Positions 2,027 through 26,503 of a DNA stretch of 40,751 nucleotides are shown here, in pieces. Location of the stretch: NCBI GenBank assembly GCA_947458095.1, contig CANGYO010000005.1, positions 1 to 40,751 on the forward strand, written 5' to 3'. This DNA comes from Vampirovibrionales bacterium (GTDB lineage Bacteria; Cyanobacteriota; Vampirovibrionia; Vampirovibrionales; JAJTHC01). Within the stretch, counting starts at the first letter, position 1, and each line of letters starts with the position of its first letter. A program made the translations under genes and the position numbers. A model generated the notes under the pieces. The model was given only the letters and a program-made list of their open reading frames with translations. It was not told where the DNA came from and made no database searches.

Positions 2027-2235
2027 AAAATAACTTTTATTGTATAGTATCCTATAGATAAAAAGTCATAGACGGTTTTCTCTATTTCTAGGCTCTTTTC
2101 TCTGTCGGATATTATATCCTATTGTTACAAATTCGGTGTCACTAGCACTATTGTACCTCTTCCATGTATTTATGCTCATAAGTCGTTTGATTTTGGTACG
2201 TTTTATATAAGTTAAGTGTGAAAAAAGGAAACATT

Positions 2236-2952
2236 ATGTCATTAAATCCCACCAGTTTGGTTAATACACCCACAAGTAGCCCTACGGCATATGTACCGTT
2301 GAATAATAAACCAAAGAACAGAATTGAAGTCCCTCAAGATCCTCAAGAGACGTTAAGCTTGGTTAAAGACTTGTATGAACAAGCGTCTGTTCCCACTTTT
2401 GAAGAAAAGTCCAAAGCTCCTTATGTAAAACAAGTGGACGATCGTGGGCAAATTTACCTTGAACCGAATTATAATCAAAACGTGGAAGGTGCCAAATATC
2501 AAATTACAGACAAGGGTGAAGTTTTTGTAACCCCTAACCCTTATATCGTAGACGGTACTTCAGATATTAAGGAACCTGCGACAGACCCTAAGGTGATTGC
2601 AGAAGTGGAACAACTTATCGCCGAAGCAAAGCCTCAAGAAGAAATCCCTGAGCGTTCTCTTGAAGTGGGGTATCGAAGAGGTCCAGAAGGTGAGCTTGAG
2701 CTTACGAAGAAATACATTGATGGCAGTAATGAGTATTATACAATTACAGCGGATGGAGCGGTGAATGTTTCCAAATTCAAAGGGAATAAAATACAGACTT
2801 ATGTTCCAGCACAGCAAATTATCAAACCTGGTGAATTGCCTCCGTTAAAAGAAGGTGAAGAACGTCCTGTGGGGCAAGCGTTGAACGGAGTGGTGTTTCC
2901 GCCAGAAGCGAACGTTCCTGCGAATGGGAAAGTCCTCAACATCGAAGCGTAG
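2236..2952 (+). CDS. Hypothetical protein, paralogue 1 of a tandem pair
   Basis: ORF 2218-2952; ATG at 2236 is preceded by AAAAAAGGAAAC. N-term MSLNPTSLVNTPTSSPTAYVPL and C-term QQIIKPGELPPLKEGEERPVGQAL match the next ORF. Confidence 0.85.
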   Translation: MSLNPTSLVNTPTSSPTAYVPLNNKPKNRIEVPQDPQETLSLVKDLYEQASVPTFEEKSKAPYVKQVDDRGQIYLEPNYNQNVEGAKYQITDKGEVFVTPNPYIVDGTSDIKEPATDPKVIAEVEQLIAEAKPQEEIPERSLEVGYRRGPEGELELTKKYIDGSNEYYTITADGAVNVSKFKGNKIQTYVPAQQIIKPGELPPLKEGEERPVGQALNGVVFPPEANVPANGKVLNIEA

Positions 2953-2988
2953 TTTTTGTACAGTGTTTAAATTAAAAAAGGAAATCTT

Positions 2989-3696
2989 ATGTCTATTAGT
3001 CCAACAAGTTTAGTCAATATCCCTGCAAGTAGCTCTAATGCTTATGTCCCATTAAGTAAACGGGAAAAGCAGAAAATCGAAGCCCCGCAAGATCCTCAAG
3101 CAGAATTGCAATTGGTGCAAGATCTTTATGAGCAAGCGTCCGTTACGACGCTTGAAGAAAAGGCGAAATCTCCTTATACAAAAGAAGTGAATCGCTATGG
3201 AGAAATCAGCCTAAAGCCAAATCGTTACGTGGAAGGGGCAACCTACCGCGTCAATGAAGACGGGCAAGTTTGGGTGACGCCTCCTGAATATAAATTACCG
3301 GGTACCTTGAACAGCCATGAAGAAAATGCACCGCCTGAAGTGTTGTCAGAACTGGCACAAGTCATGGCAGAAGCTCAACCCGTTCCAGAACAAAGCACCT
3401 TAGCCTTTTTTGATCGTGAGCATAAGGGTCAAGTCGAAATTAAGAAAACCAATGCGGATGGCAGTGATGTAAGCTATTTCATCAATCCAGACGGTAGTGT
3501 GGATGCCTTCAATTCTCATAAAGACAAGCTTGGTAACTTCGTTTTTTCAGGTATGCAACAGATCGTCAAACCCGGTGAATTGCCTGTTTTAAAAGAAGGT
3601 GAAGCGCGTCCTGTGGGGCAAGCGTTGAGTGAAGTCCCTCCTTCGCCAGAAGCAAGCGTTCCTGCTAACGGGCAAATTCTTAACGTCGAAGGGTAG
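2989..3696 (+). CDS. Hypothetical protein, paralogue 2 of a tandem pair
   Basis: RBS AAAAAAGGAAATCTT-ATG. N-term MSISPTSLVNIPASSSNAYVPL and C-term QQIVKPGELPVLKEGEARPVGQAL. Confidence 0.88.
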   Translation: MSISPTSLVNIPASSSNAYVPLSKREKQKIEAPQDPQAELQLVQDLYEQASVTTLEEKAKSPYTKEVNRYGEISLKPNRYVEGATYRVNEDGQVWVTPPEYKLPGTLNSHEENAPPEVLSELAQVMAEAQPVPEQSTLAFFDREHKGQVEIKKTNADGSDVSYFINPDGSVDAFNSHKDKLGNFVFSGMQQIVKPGELPVLKEGEARPVGQALSEVPPSPEASVPANGQILNVEG

Positions 3697-12305: not shown

Positions 12306-12443
12306 TTTTTGAATAATTTCCCCTATAGTGTCTATACTTTGTCGCTACGATTATTTTGTTCAGTCATGTAGGTCTATCTACACTTCTTCACAAAATAATC
12401 TAGGCTCCTCGTCTAGCCTAAGTACGGAAAACTCTTTAAAACA
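12306..12443 (-). repeat. Repeat family B, near-complete copy
   Basis: Reverse complement ...GGCTAGACGAGGAGCCTAGATTATTTTGTGAAGAAGTGTAGATAGACCTACATGACTGAACAAAATAATCGTAGCGACAAAGTATAGAC..., matching 38705-38841. Confidence 0.85.
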
Positions 12444-12457
12444 CTATATAAGCAAGC

Positions 12458-13018
12458 TTAGTCTTCAAGTTTGATTTCATCCGCTTTTTTGGAATTGAAA
12501 GCCTCTTGCGTACGTTCACTGGTGACAATACCGTATTTGTCTAAATCAATGTGCGGAAAATTAAACACGCTCGCCACCATGCTACTGGGGAAAAGCGAAA
12601 GCTTCGTCGTGTACAAACGTTTTTTGTCGATTAAAAGCTTCTGATTCTCTTCAAAAGAATCACGCCCTGCTTCGACGGTTTCTTGAATACGTTTGTACAA
12701 AGAAGCGTCAATGTTCGGATTCTGCTCCTTCAAGAACTGAAACACGGCTTGAGATCCCTTGTCGCCGTAACGCCCTTCGATCGCACTTTTGTAGACTTTT
12801 TCCGTATCTTTGGCGTACAACGCCGACACTTGCACCGATTCTTTAAACTTCTTCCACATATTGTCGTAATTGTTTTGATTCTGCTCGTATTGAGCAATCA
12901 CGCCTTTTTCAAGGCTCACAAAACTGTTGTAGGTTTGAATCGTTGAACCCACTAGCACAACGCCTAGAATCAACGTCAATGCGAAGGTGGCAATAATCCA
13001 TTTTACATAAGCTTTCAT
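12458..13018 (-). CDS. lemA: LemA-family membrane-anchored protein
   Basis: N-terminal TM then TIQTYNSFVSLEKGVIAQYEQNQNNYDNMWKKFKE; C-terminal ASVFNFPHIDLDKYGIVTSERTQEAF. Start chosen at MKAYVKW (13018); the track ORF starts at 13033. Confidence 0.85.
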   Translation of the reverse strand: MKAYVKWIIATFALTLILGVVLVGSTIQTYNSFVSLEKGVIAQYEQNQNNYDNMWKKFKESVQVSALYAKDTEKVYKSAIEGRYGDKGSQAVFQFLKEQNPNIDASLYKRIQETVEAGRDSFEENQKLLIDKKRLYTTKLSLFPSSMVASVFNFPHIDLDKYGIVTSERTQEAFNSKKADEIKLED

Positions 13019-13075
13019 TTTAGGGTACTCCATTATTTTGTCTGTTAGGGTTACTTGATTTATTATATACGAGAT

Positions 13076-14137
13076 TTAATCAAAGTCATTCTTTCTAAAT
13101 GCTTTTCTTAAAGGAAACACTTCCACATGGTGAAAAAAGAATCCCATACCCACCGAAACCAATAAGCTAATAACAGCCCCTAAAATCCATTGAAGTAAAG
13201 TGGGTTTAAACGATTCCTGTAGGTACTTAAAGTCGCTCATTTCTCTAATTTTATAGTGGGCTAAAATGGTGTTTCGTATTTTGGGAAACAATTGGGCATC
13301 TGTTTTTTGATGATCCTGAATCACATTTCGCAATTTCACCTTAAAATCAGGATAGCTCAAGCCAATGACATCCACCCATTGAACAGCCTCTTTTTTCACA
13401 CCAGCGACGATGATAATATCGTTTTGCTTGCCCCCTTCCCACGCCCGTTGTAACTGTTTGGCATAATTCTTAGGTTTAGAGGTCGTATATAAAATCACAT
13501 TCGCTTTGGTACGAGGTCCAATATCCGCATTCAGTTCCGTTAAAAGCTTATTGGCTTGAGCCGTATTTTTAATCGAATCCCCCAAAAAACGGTCGAGCTT
13601 ATATTCGTCATAAAGTTTATTGGGGTAAGGAATAAAATCCGCTTTATTGACGGTAGACGCATCATTGGCGAACAAGGAATCGGGATCGGCTTTGATATAG
13701 TTTTCATACGAAAAGAAGTGCGTCATGGGCGTACCCACCGTCAGCTTCGCCCAATGAGGTGGCGTGTAGATACCTTGCCTGTCGACAGGTTGAATATAAA
13801 TGCGTTTAGGCAAGTTCGTTTCGGCAAACCACACGACATCATAACCATGTTCATAACAGGTTTGACAAGAACGTCCCCCACGTCGTGAGCTTCTGCAATG
13901 GCATTGATACGAATGCTTACAATGTACACGATCGCTGGCTTTAGACACCATTCGACCTGTCACATATTCATTGTCTTGCAAACTACTAGACATGATTAAA
14001 AAGCACATCCCTAAAATAAGAAGTGTTTGCACCACAAATTGTGTGACGCATTCTCTCCAACAAATTTGCTTGGAAACCAACCAAAACCCCAGTAAAACGA
14101 GACTGGTGAGTACAAAATAAACCCCAAACATCAACAT
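13076..14137 (-). CDS. Cys-rich membrane protein resembling a large-phage-associated hypothetical family
   Basis: TM segments at both ends; HCKHSYQCHCRSSRRGGRSCQTCYEHGYDVVW then VDRQGIYTPPHWAKLTVGTP...NYIKADPDSLF. Confidence 0.8.
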   Translation of the reverse strand: MLMFGVYFVLTSLVLLGFWLVSKQICWRECVTQFVVQTLLILGMCFLIMSSSLQDNEYVTGRMVSKASDRVHCKHSYQCHCRSSRRGGRSCQTCYEHGYDVVWFAETNLPKRIYIQPVDRQGIYTPPHWAKLTVGTPMTHFFSYENYIKADPDSLFANDASTVNKADFIPYPNKLYDEYKLDRFLGDSIKNTAQANKLLTELNADIGPRTKANVILYTTSKPKNYAKQLQRAWEGGKQNDIIIVAGVKKEAVQWVDVIGLSYPDFKVKLRNVIQDHQKTDAQLFPKIRNTILAHYKIREMSDFKYLQESFKPTLLQWILGAVISLLVSVGMGFFFHHVEVFPLRKAFRKNDFD

Positions 14138-14143
14138 TTAAAC

Positions 14144-14962
14144 TTATTTCCCCTGTGTCAACGCGTCTATTTGAGCAATCCGAGCCGCATCAGGCGGGTG
14201 CGTACGAAGGAACTCGGGTGTTTTGACGTTCTTCGTGCCTTTTTCAAGCAATTGAAAGACCTTCACCCCTGCATGAGCATCATAGTTCGACGCCTGCAAC
14301 AACATCACCGCATAGCGATCCGCCTCCAGCTCTTTGGCTTGACTATGTTGCATAGAAGACACATTCAACAAGCTGATAATGGATCCCGAAAGTTGAGGAA
14401 AGGCAATCGCCGCAGGCATCAATAAGGTGGCGTAAATCACGCTTTTGCCCATGGCTTGAATCGCATGACGATGGTACACATGCCCCATTTCATGAGCGAG
14501 TACAAAGCGACGGGCATCAATGTCGTCGAGCTGACGCATTAAGCCTTCATACAACACGATTTTTCCACCAGGTAAGGCATAGGCGTTAATGGTTTCCCCC
14601 AAGCCTTTATAGACTTGCATGTTTACCAAAGCAGGGCTAGGCAAGTGAGTTTTAAGATCTTTGAGCATCGCATCATAATCAGCATCACAGGCAATTTCAT
14701 GTTTCTTGGTTTGTTGTTTGATGTATTCTTCCCCAATAGGGGTGAGCCATTGTTCCGATTCAGGGGGCAGGTAAGGCACCATATACGCCACCCCTTCGGT
14801 TAAGACCCAAAACAAAATCGCTACCCCAAACACAATGCTCAACACATATTTCGCAAACATCCACAAGGCAGATTCTGGCGTGGCGTTAATCGATTCAGGC
14901 ATCGCTCGATACGTCGTTTTATTACGAGGCATATTAGGCTGAAGTGGAATATGTTCACTCAT
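14144..14962 (-). CDS. M48-family (BepA/LoiP-like) zinc metalloprotease
   Basis: TM region then VLAHEMGHVYHRHAIQAMGKS (HExxH) and KELEADRYAVMLLQASNYD; TALPGG-type NAYALPGGKIVLYEGLM. Confidence 0.92.
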   Translation of the reverse strand: MSEHIPLQPNMPRNKTTYRAMPESINATPESALWMFAKYVLSIVFGVAILFWVLTEGVAYMVPYLPPESEQWLTPIGEEYIKQQTKKHEIACDADYDAMLKDLKTHLPSPALVNMQVYKGLGETINAYALPGGKIVLYEGLMRQLDDIDARRFVLAHEMGHVYHRHAIQAMGKSVIYATLLMPAAIAFPQLSGSIISLLNVSSMQHSQAKELEADRYAVMLLQASNYDAHAGVKVFQLLEKGTKNVKTPEFLRTHPPDAARIAQIDALTQGK

Positions 14963-15510
14963 AAGATGATGTCCTGATCAGGAAAGCGAATCGCCTCTTC
15001 TGAACTTTGTGGAAACGAAGACTTCTTCAGCCGTATCGCCGTACCATAAGCATACACCGCCAAAGGACGAATCGGCATATTGGGAATGGACGGCTGCATG
15101 GTATCTAATTGCAAGCGTGTATTGACGATAATATCCGCCATGGGTGCCGATTCCTTCATTCTTAAAATCGCTTCTCGTCTGGCTCTATCTACAATGCTTT
15201 CATACGACTTCACTTTACCACCGAGTACATCAAAAATCCCACTTAAAAAATAACGAAAGTAATCAGGCGTAATCACGACTGAACCCACCACCATACGAGC
15301 CGATTCGATTTGATCCCAGTGAGATTCAGGCACAAAAGACTTCAATTTCATCGTAACCGCAGGCAATTTAAAGAAAAAGGCTTCTCGTTCTTGAATCGAA
15401 CGTAAGTGGTTGCGTTGAAAGAGCGTCCCTACAATGTAGCCCACAATTAACAAAGCCGACCCCACGACCAATTCATGATTTTGCAAATACGCCGTGACTA
15501 AACCATTCAT
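14959..15510 (-). CDS. Membrane-anchored YbjQ/UPF0145-family protein
   Basis: TM then GKVKSYESIVDRARREAILRMKESAPMADIIVNTRL...AYGTAI. Overlaps the M48 gene by 4 bp. Confidence 0.8.
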   Translation of the reverse strand: MNGLVTAYLQNHELVVGSALLIVGYIVGTLFQRNHLRSIQEREAFFFKLPAVTMKLKSFVPESHWDQIESARMVVGSVVITPDYFRYFLSGIFDVLGGKVKSYESIVDRARREAILRMKESAPMADIIVNTRLQLDTMQPSIPNMPIRPLAVYAYGTAIRLKKSSFPQSSEEAIRFPDQDIIL

Positions 15511-15557
15511 AAGGGCATTCTCTCTATCTTTCTAAATGACTTAACAATAGCTTAGCA

Positions 15558-15911
15558 CTATTCGACAAAAACGGCAGTCCCATACACATAAATTTCCGCC
15601 GCCCCTTGAGCGACATCCGACGTTGAAAAACGGATATTAGTTACGGCATTCGCCCCCATAAACTCGGCTTGGGCAATCATACGTTGAATGGCTTCGTTTC
15701 GTGTGGTGTTCAACAAACGCGTATACATGGGCAATTCGCCACCAATAATACTTTTAAAACCCGCCGCCCAATCCGCAAAAATGTTACGAGACCGCACCAC
15801 GGATCCCGACACCAAGCCATAGTGATGCTTGATTTTCTTGCCAGGGATTTCTTCTAGGTTGGTGATGTTGAAGGAATGCTTGTGAATGCTGTCTTGGTCA
15901 AGGGTCATCAT
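15558..15911 (-). CDS. YbjQ/UPF0145-family protein (soluble)
   Basis: YGLVSGSVVRSRNIFADWAAGFKSIIGGELPMYTRLLNTTRNEAIQRMIAQAEFMGANAVTNIRFSTSDVAQGAAEIYVYGTAV. Track ORF extends to 15962. Confidence 0.88.
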   Translation of the reverse strand: MMTLDQDSIHKHSFNITNLEEIPGKKIKHHYGLVSGSVVRSRNIFADWAAGFKSIIGGELPMYTRLLNTTRNEAIQRMIAQAEFMGANAVTNIRFSTSDVAQGAAEIYVYGTAVFVE

Positions 15912-16033
15912 GGGGGTTACGTCCTTTTTTAATAGGGATTTTCTATCATAAGTGTAAAGCATTTTTAATAAAATCAGGGGATACGTAAAAAAGCTCCTTT
16001 TTTAAGTGGATTTGTGATAAGCTGTAAACTAAA

Positions 16034-16147
16034 TCCTGTCCCCTCTCCTTGAGGAGAGGGCTAGGGAGAGGGGGGGATGTCTAAAATCCAGTGTTTACAT
16101 CTACTCCCCACCCCAACCCTCCCCTTAAAGGGGAGGGGGTAAAGCCA
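16034..16147 (+). repeat. Repeat family A, short copy lacking the middle module
   Basis: TCCTGTCCCCTCTCCTTGAGGAGAGGG...CAGTGTTTACATCTACTCCCCACCCCAACCCTCCCCTTAAAGGGGAGGG. Confidence 0.85.
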
Positions 16148-26274: not shown

Positions 26275-26503
26275 AGCCTCTTACTCCCTCCCCTTTAAGG
26301 GGAGGAAAACAACCTTCTCATTCACGAAGTGAATCTTCCCCTTTAGGAAGGAGAGGTTGGGAGAGGAAACCAACGGTTTTCTTTCCCAAGAGAAAAAGTC
26401 TGTGACTTTTTCGACCATGGTGGGGTGGGGAGTAGATGTAAACACTGGGTTTTAGGTATCCCCCCCCTCTCCCTATCCCTCTCATCAAGGAGAGGGAACA
26501 GGA
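26275..26503 (-). repeat. Repeat family A, full copy
   Basis: CTCCCTCCCCTTTAAGGGGAGG...ATTCACGAAGTGAAT...AAAAAGTCTGTGACTTTTT...CTCATCAAGGAGAGGGAACAGG. Confidence 0.9.

Follow-up and report, generated by a model that had tools for sequence, protein, structure and literature searches.

A five-gene block of a Vampirovibrionales bacterium joins a conserved YbjQ/M48 triplet to a phage-type gene pair resembling LemA and TPM proteins

Results

Layout of the five-gene block

The window, i.e., the whole stretch of 40,751 nucleotides of Vampirovibrionales DNA analysed here, carries at 12458-15962 five minus-strand ORFs, which follow each other in the direction of transcription in the order YbjQ, TM-anchored YbjQ (TM-YbjQ), M48 protease, Cys-rich protein and LemA-like protein. 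The spacings are 47, -4 (overlap), 6 and 42 bp, which confirms the tight same-strand array with a 4-bp overlap and a 6-bp gap given in a preliminary description of this DNA. The features are:

15558..15962, minus strand: soluble YbjQ (UPF0145) protein without TM; Pfam YbjQ_1 118.8 bits (cut-off 23)
14959..15510, minus strand: TM-anchored YbjQ protein, TM 13-31 by hydropathy and charge; Pfam YbjQ_1 52.8 bits (cut-off 23)
14144..14962, minus strand: M48 metalloprotease with one TM (40-58); Pfam Peptidase_M48 104 bits, above cut-off
13076..14137, minus strand: Cys-rich membrane protein matching PHROG 2087 (E=4.9e-77, residues 3-340)
12458..13033, minus strand: LemA-like membrane-anchored helical protein matching PHROG 1383 (E=2e-55, residues 9-190)
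12400..12421, minus strand: terminator-like hairpin 3' of the LemA-like gene, a possible operon end from a consensus scan only

The two YbjQ and the M48 identities assigned in the preliminary description hold, all three proteins scoring above their Pfam cut-offs. Its membrane setting of the block is likewise supported by TM segments in TM-YbjQ, M48, the Cys-rich and the LemA-like protein. Two of the genes may start further downstream than their ORFs. The true start of the soluble YbjQ is probably Met18 (15911, giving 117 aa), since the orthologue in G001, a genome of the same genus, begins there, while that of the LemA-like protein is probably Met6 (13018), which is invariant in 56 homologues and has a GGAG 9 nt upstream. 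Terminator-like sites are no more frequent in this region than expected by chance, and both promoter and terminator scans perform near chance.

G001 shows the identical five genes in identical order, its LemA gene being cut by the contig end. The neighbours of the block are ordinary chromosomal genes, e.g., HisF, RmuC, a UvrC-type and a pyrimidine-nucleoside phosphorylase type gene (HisF and UvrC recognised by eye). No phage genes were recognised among the genes neighbouring the pair of Cys-rich and LemA-like genes, and housekeeping genes lie on both flanks. With these neighbours, the block is therefore unlike a prophage.

Conservation of the YbjQ/M48 triplet

A strong match to TM-YbjQ is present in 23/117 genomes of the class. 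In 20 of these 23, TM-YbjQ is immediately followed by the M48 gene, encoded on the same strand, and preceded at short distance by the first YbjQ (counted by hand from coordinates; the exceptions are G002, G021 and G417), and the triplet was confirmed by eye in four genomes from three families. TM-YbjQ orthologues from other genera and families of the class are 33-44% identical. This conservation marks the triplet as an old unit of bacteria. The full five-gene block, in contrast, was found within the class only in the window's own genus such that, for the genomes searched, there is no widespread five-part system. A conserved neighbourhood, which the preliminary description proposed to look for, is thus seen for the triplet, while its union with the pair was found in this genus only.

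The soluble YbjQ has the PDB relatives 1y2i, 1vr4 and 2gtc. Judged from hydropathy and charge alone, the YbjQ domain of TM-YbjQ is probably cytoplasmic and the catalytic domain of M48 probably extracytoplasmic. The M48 protein carries HExxH at 157-161 (HEMGH) and the downstream glutamates E211/E213, all conserved in the orthologue alignment, and has BepA and 3c37 as PDB relatives. It shares the M48 catalytic domain with the proteases BepA and LoiP, its closest relatives in NCBIfam and PDB, but differs from them in being TM-anchored, in its scores, which stay well under the curated thresholds of the respective models, and in sharing an operon with two YbjQ genes.

The two-gene pair in viruses

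The preliminary description had proposed a link to large tailed phages for the Cys-rich protein. This link stands (PHROG 2087, 480 phage records), while it was not anticipated that the LemA-like protein is equally phage-type, with relatives in 487 phage records. For both proteins, the records listed belong mostly to phages with a size of about 100 to 550 kb. The label given to PHROG 1383 is 'virion structural protein'. Both genes are adjacent and ordered as in the window in seven annotated phages. Among 54 viral loci, obtained by dereplication at 70% identity, the LemA-like gene lies directly downstream of the Cys-rich gene on the same strand in 51, with a median gap of 11 bp, and the window shows the same arrangement with a gap of 42 bp.

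No third conserved phage gene was found beside the pair: no other flanking family occurs in more than 4 of the 54 viral loci, apart from a single ORF cluster that overlaps the LemA-like gene (on the opposite strand in the example shown). Neither M48 nor YbjQ relatives turned up next to the viral pairs. In GAP32, TelA and a metallopeptidase precede the pair, which is seen in no other of the annotated phages examined. The collection scan was run with a smaller alignment, the full one being too variable as a query, and the window's Cys-rich protein as a single query gave no match among viral contigs. A search for literature naming LemA together with phages found nothing relevant.

Compared to PHROG 2087/1383 of large tailed phages, the window pair thus shows full-length matches, identical order and similar spacing, but it is chromosomal, stands beside an M48/YbjQ operon and is without recognised phage genes around it. 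On sequence evidence, the block is a 3+2 composite of a host triplet and a phage-type pair, not one ancient system. The triplet is ordinary and conserved; the main result is the identity of the pair.

Two further loci with the pair were observed. The copy of Achromobacter anxifer (L026 1313-7672) is near a RecE-like phage exonuclease gene and may therefore belong to a prophage or an integrated phage. On a contig assigned by binning to Kaiserbacteria (L022 5840-11273), the phage-type pair is accompanied about 2 kb downstream by what resembles, by eye, a canonical LemA gene with an HtpX-like gene behind it.

The LemA-like protein

Aligned with the canonical LemA of relatives, the LemA-like protein reaches an hhalign probability of 97% (E=1.1e-10) across the whole helical domain, and its profile matches the LemA structure 2etd with E=1.4e-4. 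The same structure is the first Foldseek match of its model (probability 0.89, E 0.34). As in the LemA superfamily, a single N-terminal TM (10-28) is followed by a helical fold. The Pfam LemA score (PF04011), on the other hand, is 16.8 bits and thus under the cut-off of 26.2. By profile comparison, the protein is therefore a remote LemA homologue outside Pfam LemA membership, and the LemA identity originally assigned to it holds in this remote sense only.

Predicted TPM fold of the Cys-rich protein

The Cys-rich protein is composed of a TM hairpin, a small beta domain, a TPM-like alpha/beta domain (about 190-295) and a C-terminal TM. TM segments at both ends and the motifs quoted in the preliminary description are present, the N-terminal segment being the hairpin. 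That the protein might be a divergent TPM was written down before any structure prediction. The AlphaFold2 model (60 sequences) has a pLDDT of 90.2 and a pTM of 0.84. Its five best Foldseek matches in the PDB (2kpt, 3pvh, 3ptj, 2kw7, 8c7i) are all TPM, as are the following 5anp and 7tbr, with probabilities of up to 1.00, moderate E-values (6e-3 at best) and a TM-score to the target of about 0.5. The Foldseek comparison proposed earlier for the product of 13076-14137 hence yields a fold that was not anticipated at that time.

With regard to sequence profiles, 10/60 family members match PF04536 (TPM) at E<=0.1 (best E 1.8e-4), compared to 2/60 for the next Pfam family. The window's own protein gave no match to PF04536, while a close viral relative (L031) scores 21.8 bits at the expected place, for a cut-off of 22.1. 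hhalign of the family against canonical TPM gives only 2.6% (E 0.018), aligned on the expected core, and profile searches of solved structures with the family returned no TPM match. The TPM case is thus built on the modelled fold and the sub-threshold Pfam matches, and the TPM identity of the Cys-rich protein is a prediction on these grounds. Charge and hydropathy alone suggest that its TPM domain, like the helical domain of the LemA-like protein, lies outside the inner membrane.

Co-varying residues of the small beta domain

Residues 55-105 of the Cys-rich protein form the small beta domain with the pattern CxHxxxCxC...CxxCxxHxxD, i.e., the conserved Cys/His/Asp set sits outside the TPM core. 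C73, H75, H97 and D100 are lost together across 60 sequences, which the tree resolves into three or more separate changes. The respective pairwise Fisher p-values range from 1e-6 to 4e-9, but they take no account of relatedness, and there are too few independent contrasts to reach significance. A joint loss is also seen for C81 and C91 (12/12 cases, five changes on the tree), and no coupling is observed between C73 and C81. One sequence (L021) has lost C79, C81, C91 and C94 and has kept the first set. As structural hypotheses, C73/H75/H97/D100 likely form one four-ligand metal site and C81-C91 likely a disulfide; C79-C94 is perhaps a second one. The co-variation supports a probable metal site.

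Relation to canonical LemA-TPM pairs

Of the 12 relatives with both a canonical LemA and a canonical TPM gene, 10 have the two at most 2 kb apart, in support of a common function of these families. Given the LemA homology of one protein and the predicted TPM fold of the other, we identify the pair as a divergent phage version of the known LemA-TPM gene pair, unrecognised in the libraries searched. The window's pair resembles the canonical LemA + TPM (YgcG-type) pair in having a LemA-type and a TPM-fold membrane protein side by side. It differs in that both proteins are under the Pfam cut-offs, in the gene order (TPM then LemA, while the canonical order is mostly LemA then TPM), in the extra Cys/His beta domain and in an N-terminal TM hairpin in place of a signal peptide. 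Furthermore, pairs of the window type are mainly found in phages.

Phosphatase activity of TPM domains has been argued against, and the assembly of membrane-linked complexes was proposed instead (PMC11237479, PMC12419801). TPM domains beside PspA, in particular, are proposed to be chaperone-like partners that assemble membrane complexes (PMC11237479). The YdjH-type TPM proteins of PspA operons (envelope stress) have a membrane-linked TPM domain as well, thought to aid complex assembly (PMC11237479), while the window block is without PspA and the partner is LemA-like.

Both genomes of the genus are without the canonical pair, and its replacement by the phage-type pair was therefore considered. 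We do not claim such a replacement, because these genomes are 81-85% complete and the sister genus is also without TPM. In the sister genus (G002, L174 4937-7848), two similar proteins encoded in tandem come after a canonical LemA, and the first of the two matches DUF3137.

Origin of the pair

In a tree built from 60 Cys-rich proteins, those of the window and of G001 fall into a clade of 14 rows together with 12 viruses (support 100/99). Because the genus is nested within these viruses, capture of the pair from a phage is the most likely origin on phylogenetic grounds. The direction of transfer is not proven, since a long stem of 1.65 changes per site separates the window's genus from the viruses and the sample is made up predominantly of viral rows.

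Conversely, the pair may be ancestrally bacterial and have been taken up by phages several times, the Vampirovibrionales copy being the bacterial form kept vertically or horizontally. Bacterial rows are found at several places among the viruses, requiring 6 label changes on the tree, at least 4 of them forced by well-supported branches. Pairs are present on contigs that binning assigns to Parcubacteria-type, Pseudomonadota and other bacteria, and both canonical LemA and TPM are bacterial. In addition, a relative within the class (G033, L015 5930-8368) encodes, beside histidine-kinase genes, a Cys-rich/TPM-like protein that is only very distantly related and, next to it downstream, a LemA-like one. 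We nevertheless consider a bacterial origin unlikely given the position of the window's genus inside the 12-virus clade. Moreover, the phylum search detected the Cys-rich family in only 1/386 genomes, i.e., the window's own, and the sister genus was searched for the family without success.

Possible function of the composite block

Starting from phage capture as the preferred origin, we propose with moderate confidence that in one genus a host operon (YbjQ, TM-YbjQ, M48) has gained a phage-type module of a TPM-fold and a LemA-like protein, which would act with M48 in envelope-protein assembly. The pair would form an inner-membrane complex with the TPM and helical domains facing outside and might serve as a platform on which envelope proteins are assembled or assisted in a chaperone-like manner, a role suggested because TPM domains are proposed to assemble membrane-linked complexes (PMC11237479, PMC12419801). 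The M48 protease, working with the pair in the Vampirovibrionales host, could remove envelope proteins that cannot be assembled, and the YbjQ proteins would be the cytoplasmic side of the system. A broader scenario is more speculative and, to our mind, only tentatively to be entertained: large phages may carry the LemA-like + TPM-fold module, with its Cys-His-His-Asp metal centre, for remodelling or protecting the host inner membrane while they infect, and bacteria may have captured it repeatedly, one lineage coupling it to an M48 operon.

LemA and TPM proteins are widespread in bacteria and poorly understood. Two phage families, one without a known function and the other carrying the label 'virion structural protein', here get a common identity as a viral LemA-TPM membrane pair. 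Being compact and expressible or deletable in phages, this pair is an easy entry to LemA/TPM roles, and its fixation in a bacterial operon beside a protease hints at a pathway.

Alternatively, the pair could be a phage-derived locus for superinfection exclusion or membrane protection against phages, with M48 and YbjQ as mere neighbours. This would fit phage-type membrane proteins that lack conserved phage neighbours and that related bacteria do without. We regard it as improbable, since the occurrence in phages of many types and hosts better suits a general infection function and only 6 bp separate M48 from the Cys-rich gene. Furthermore, no PADLOC model matches the pair; weak matches were obtained for the M48 protein alone (best capP, E 2.3e-5).

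About equally doubtful is that the TPM-fold protein is a metal sensor or an enzyme, such as the acid phosphatase that plant TLP18.3 is claimed to be, and that LemA serves it as a scaffold in the membrane. The fold match to TLP18.3 and the co-varying C73/H75/H97/D100 are in line with this, but TPM phosphatase activity is disputed (PMC11237479, PMC12419801) and the conserved residues are located in the small beta domain and not in the TPM core.

Least probable is a role of the LemA-like protein and its partner as virion components with the bacterial copy as a functionless prophage relic, as the PHROG and GenBank labels (PHROG 1383) might imply, since the two proteins have membrane anchors, two species of the genus keep an intact Cys-rich ORF (86% identical), housekeeping genes flank the block on both sides, and the mass-spectrometry table of phage RAY, in the passages covered, names other structural proteins and not gp46.

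Further features of the window

Between YbjQ and the next gene lies a palindromic, G/C-rich repeat about 110 bases long (16030-16145), which resembles a miniature mobile or REP-type element. Some 40 additional copies, either full or partial and for the most part 82-97% identical, are spread genome-wide, including copies inside the window near 26421, 28960 and 30458. At 2218-3696, the window encodes two tandem similar proteins that share an N-terminal motif (PTSLVN.P).
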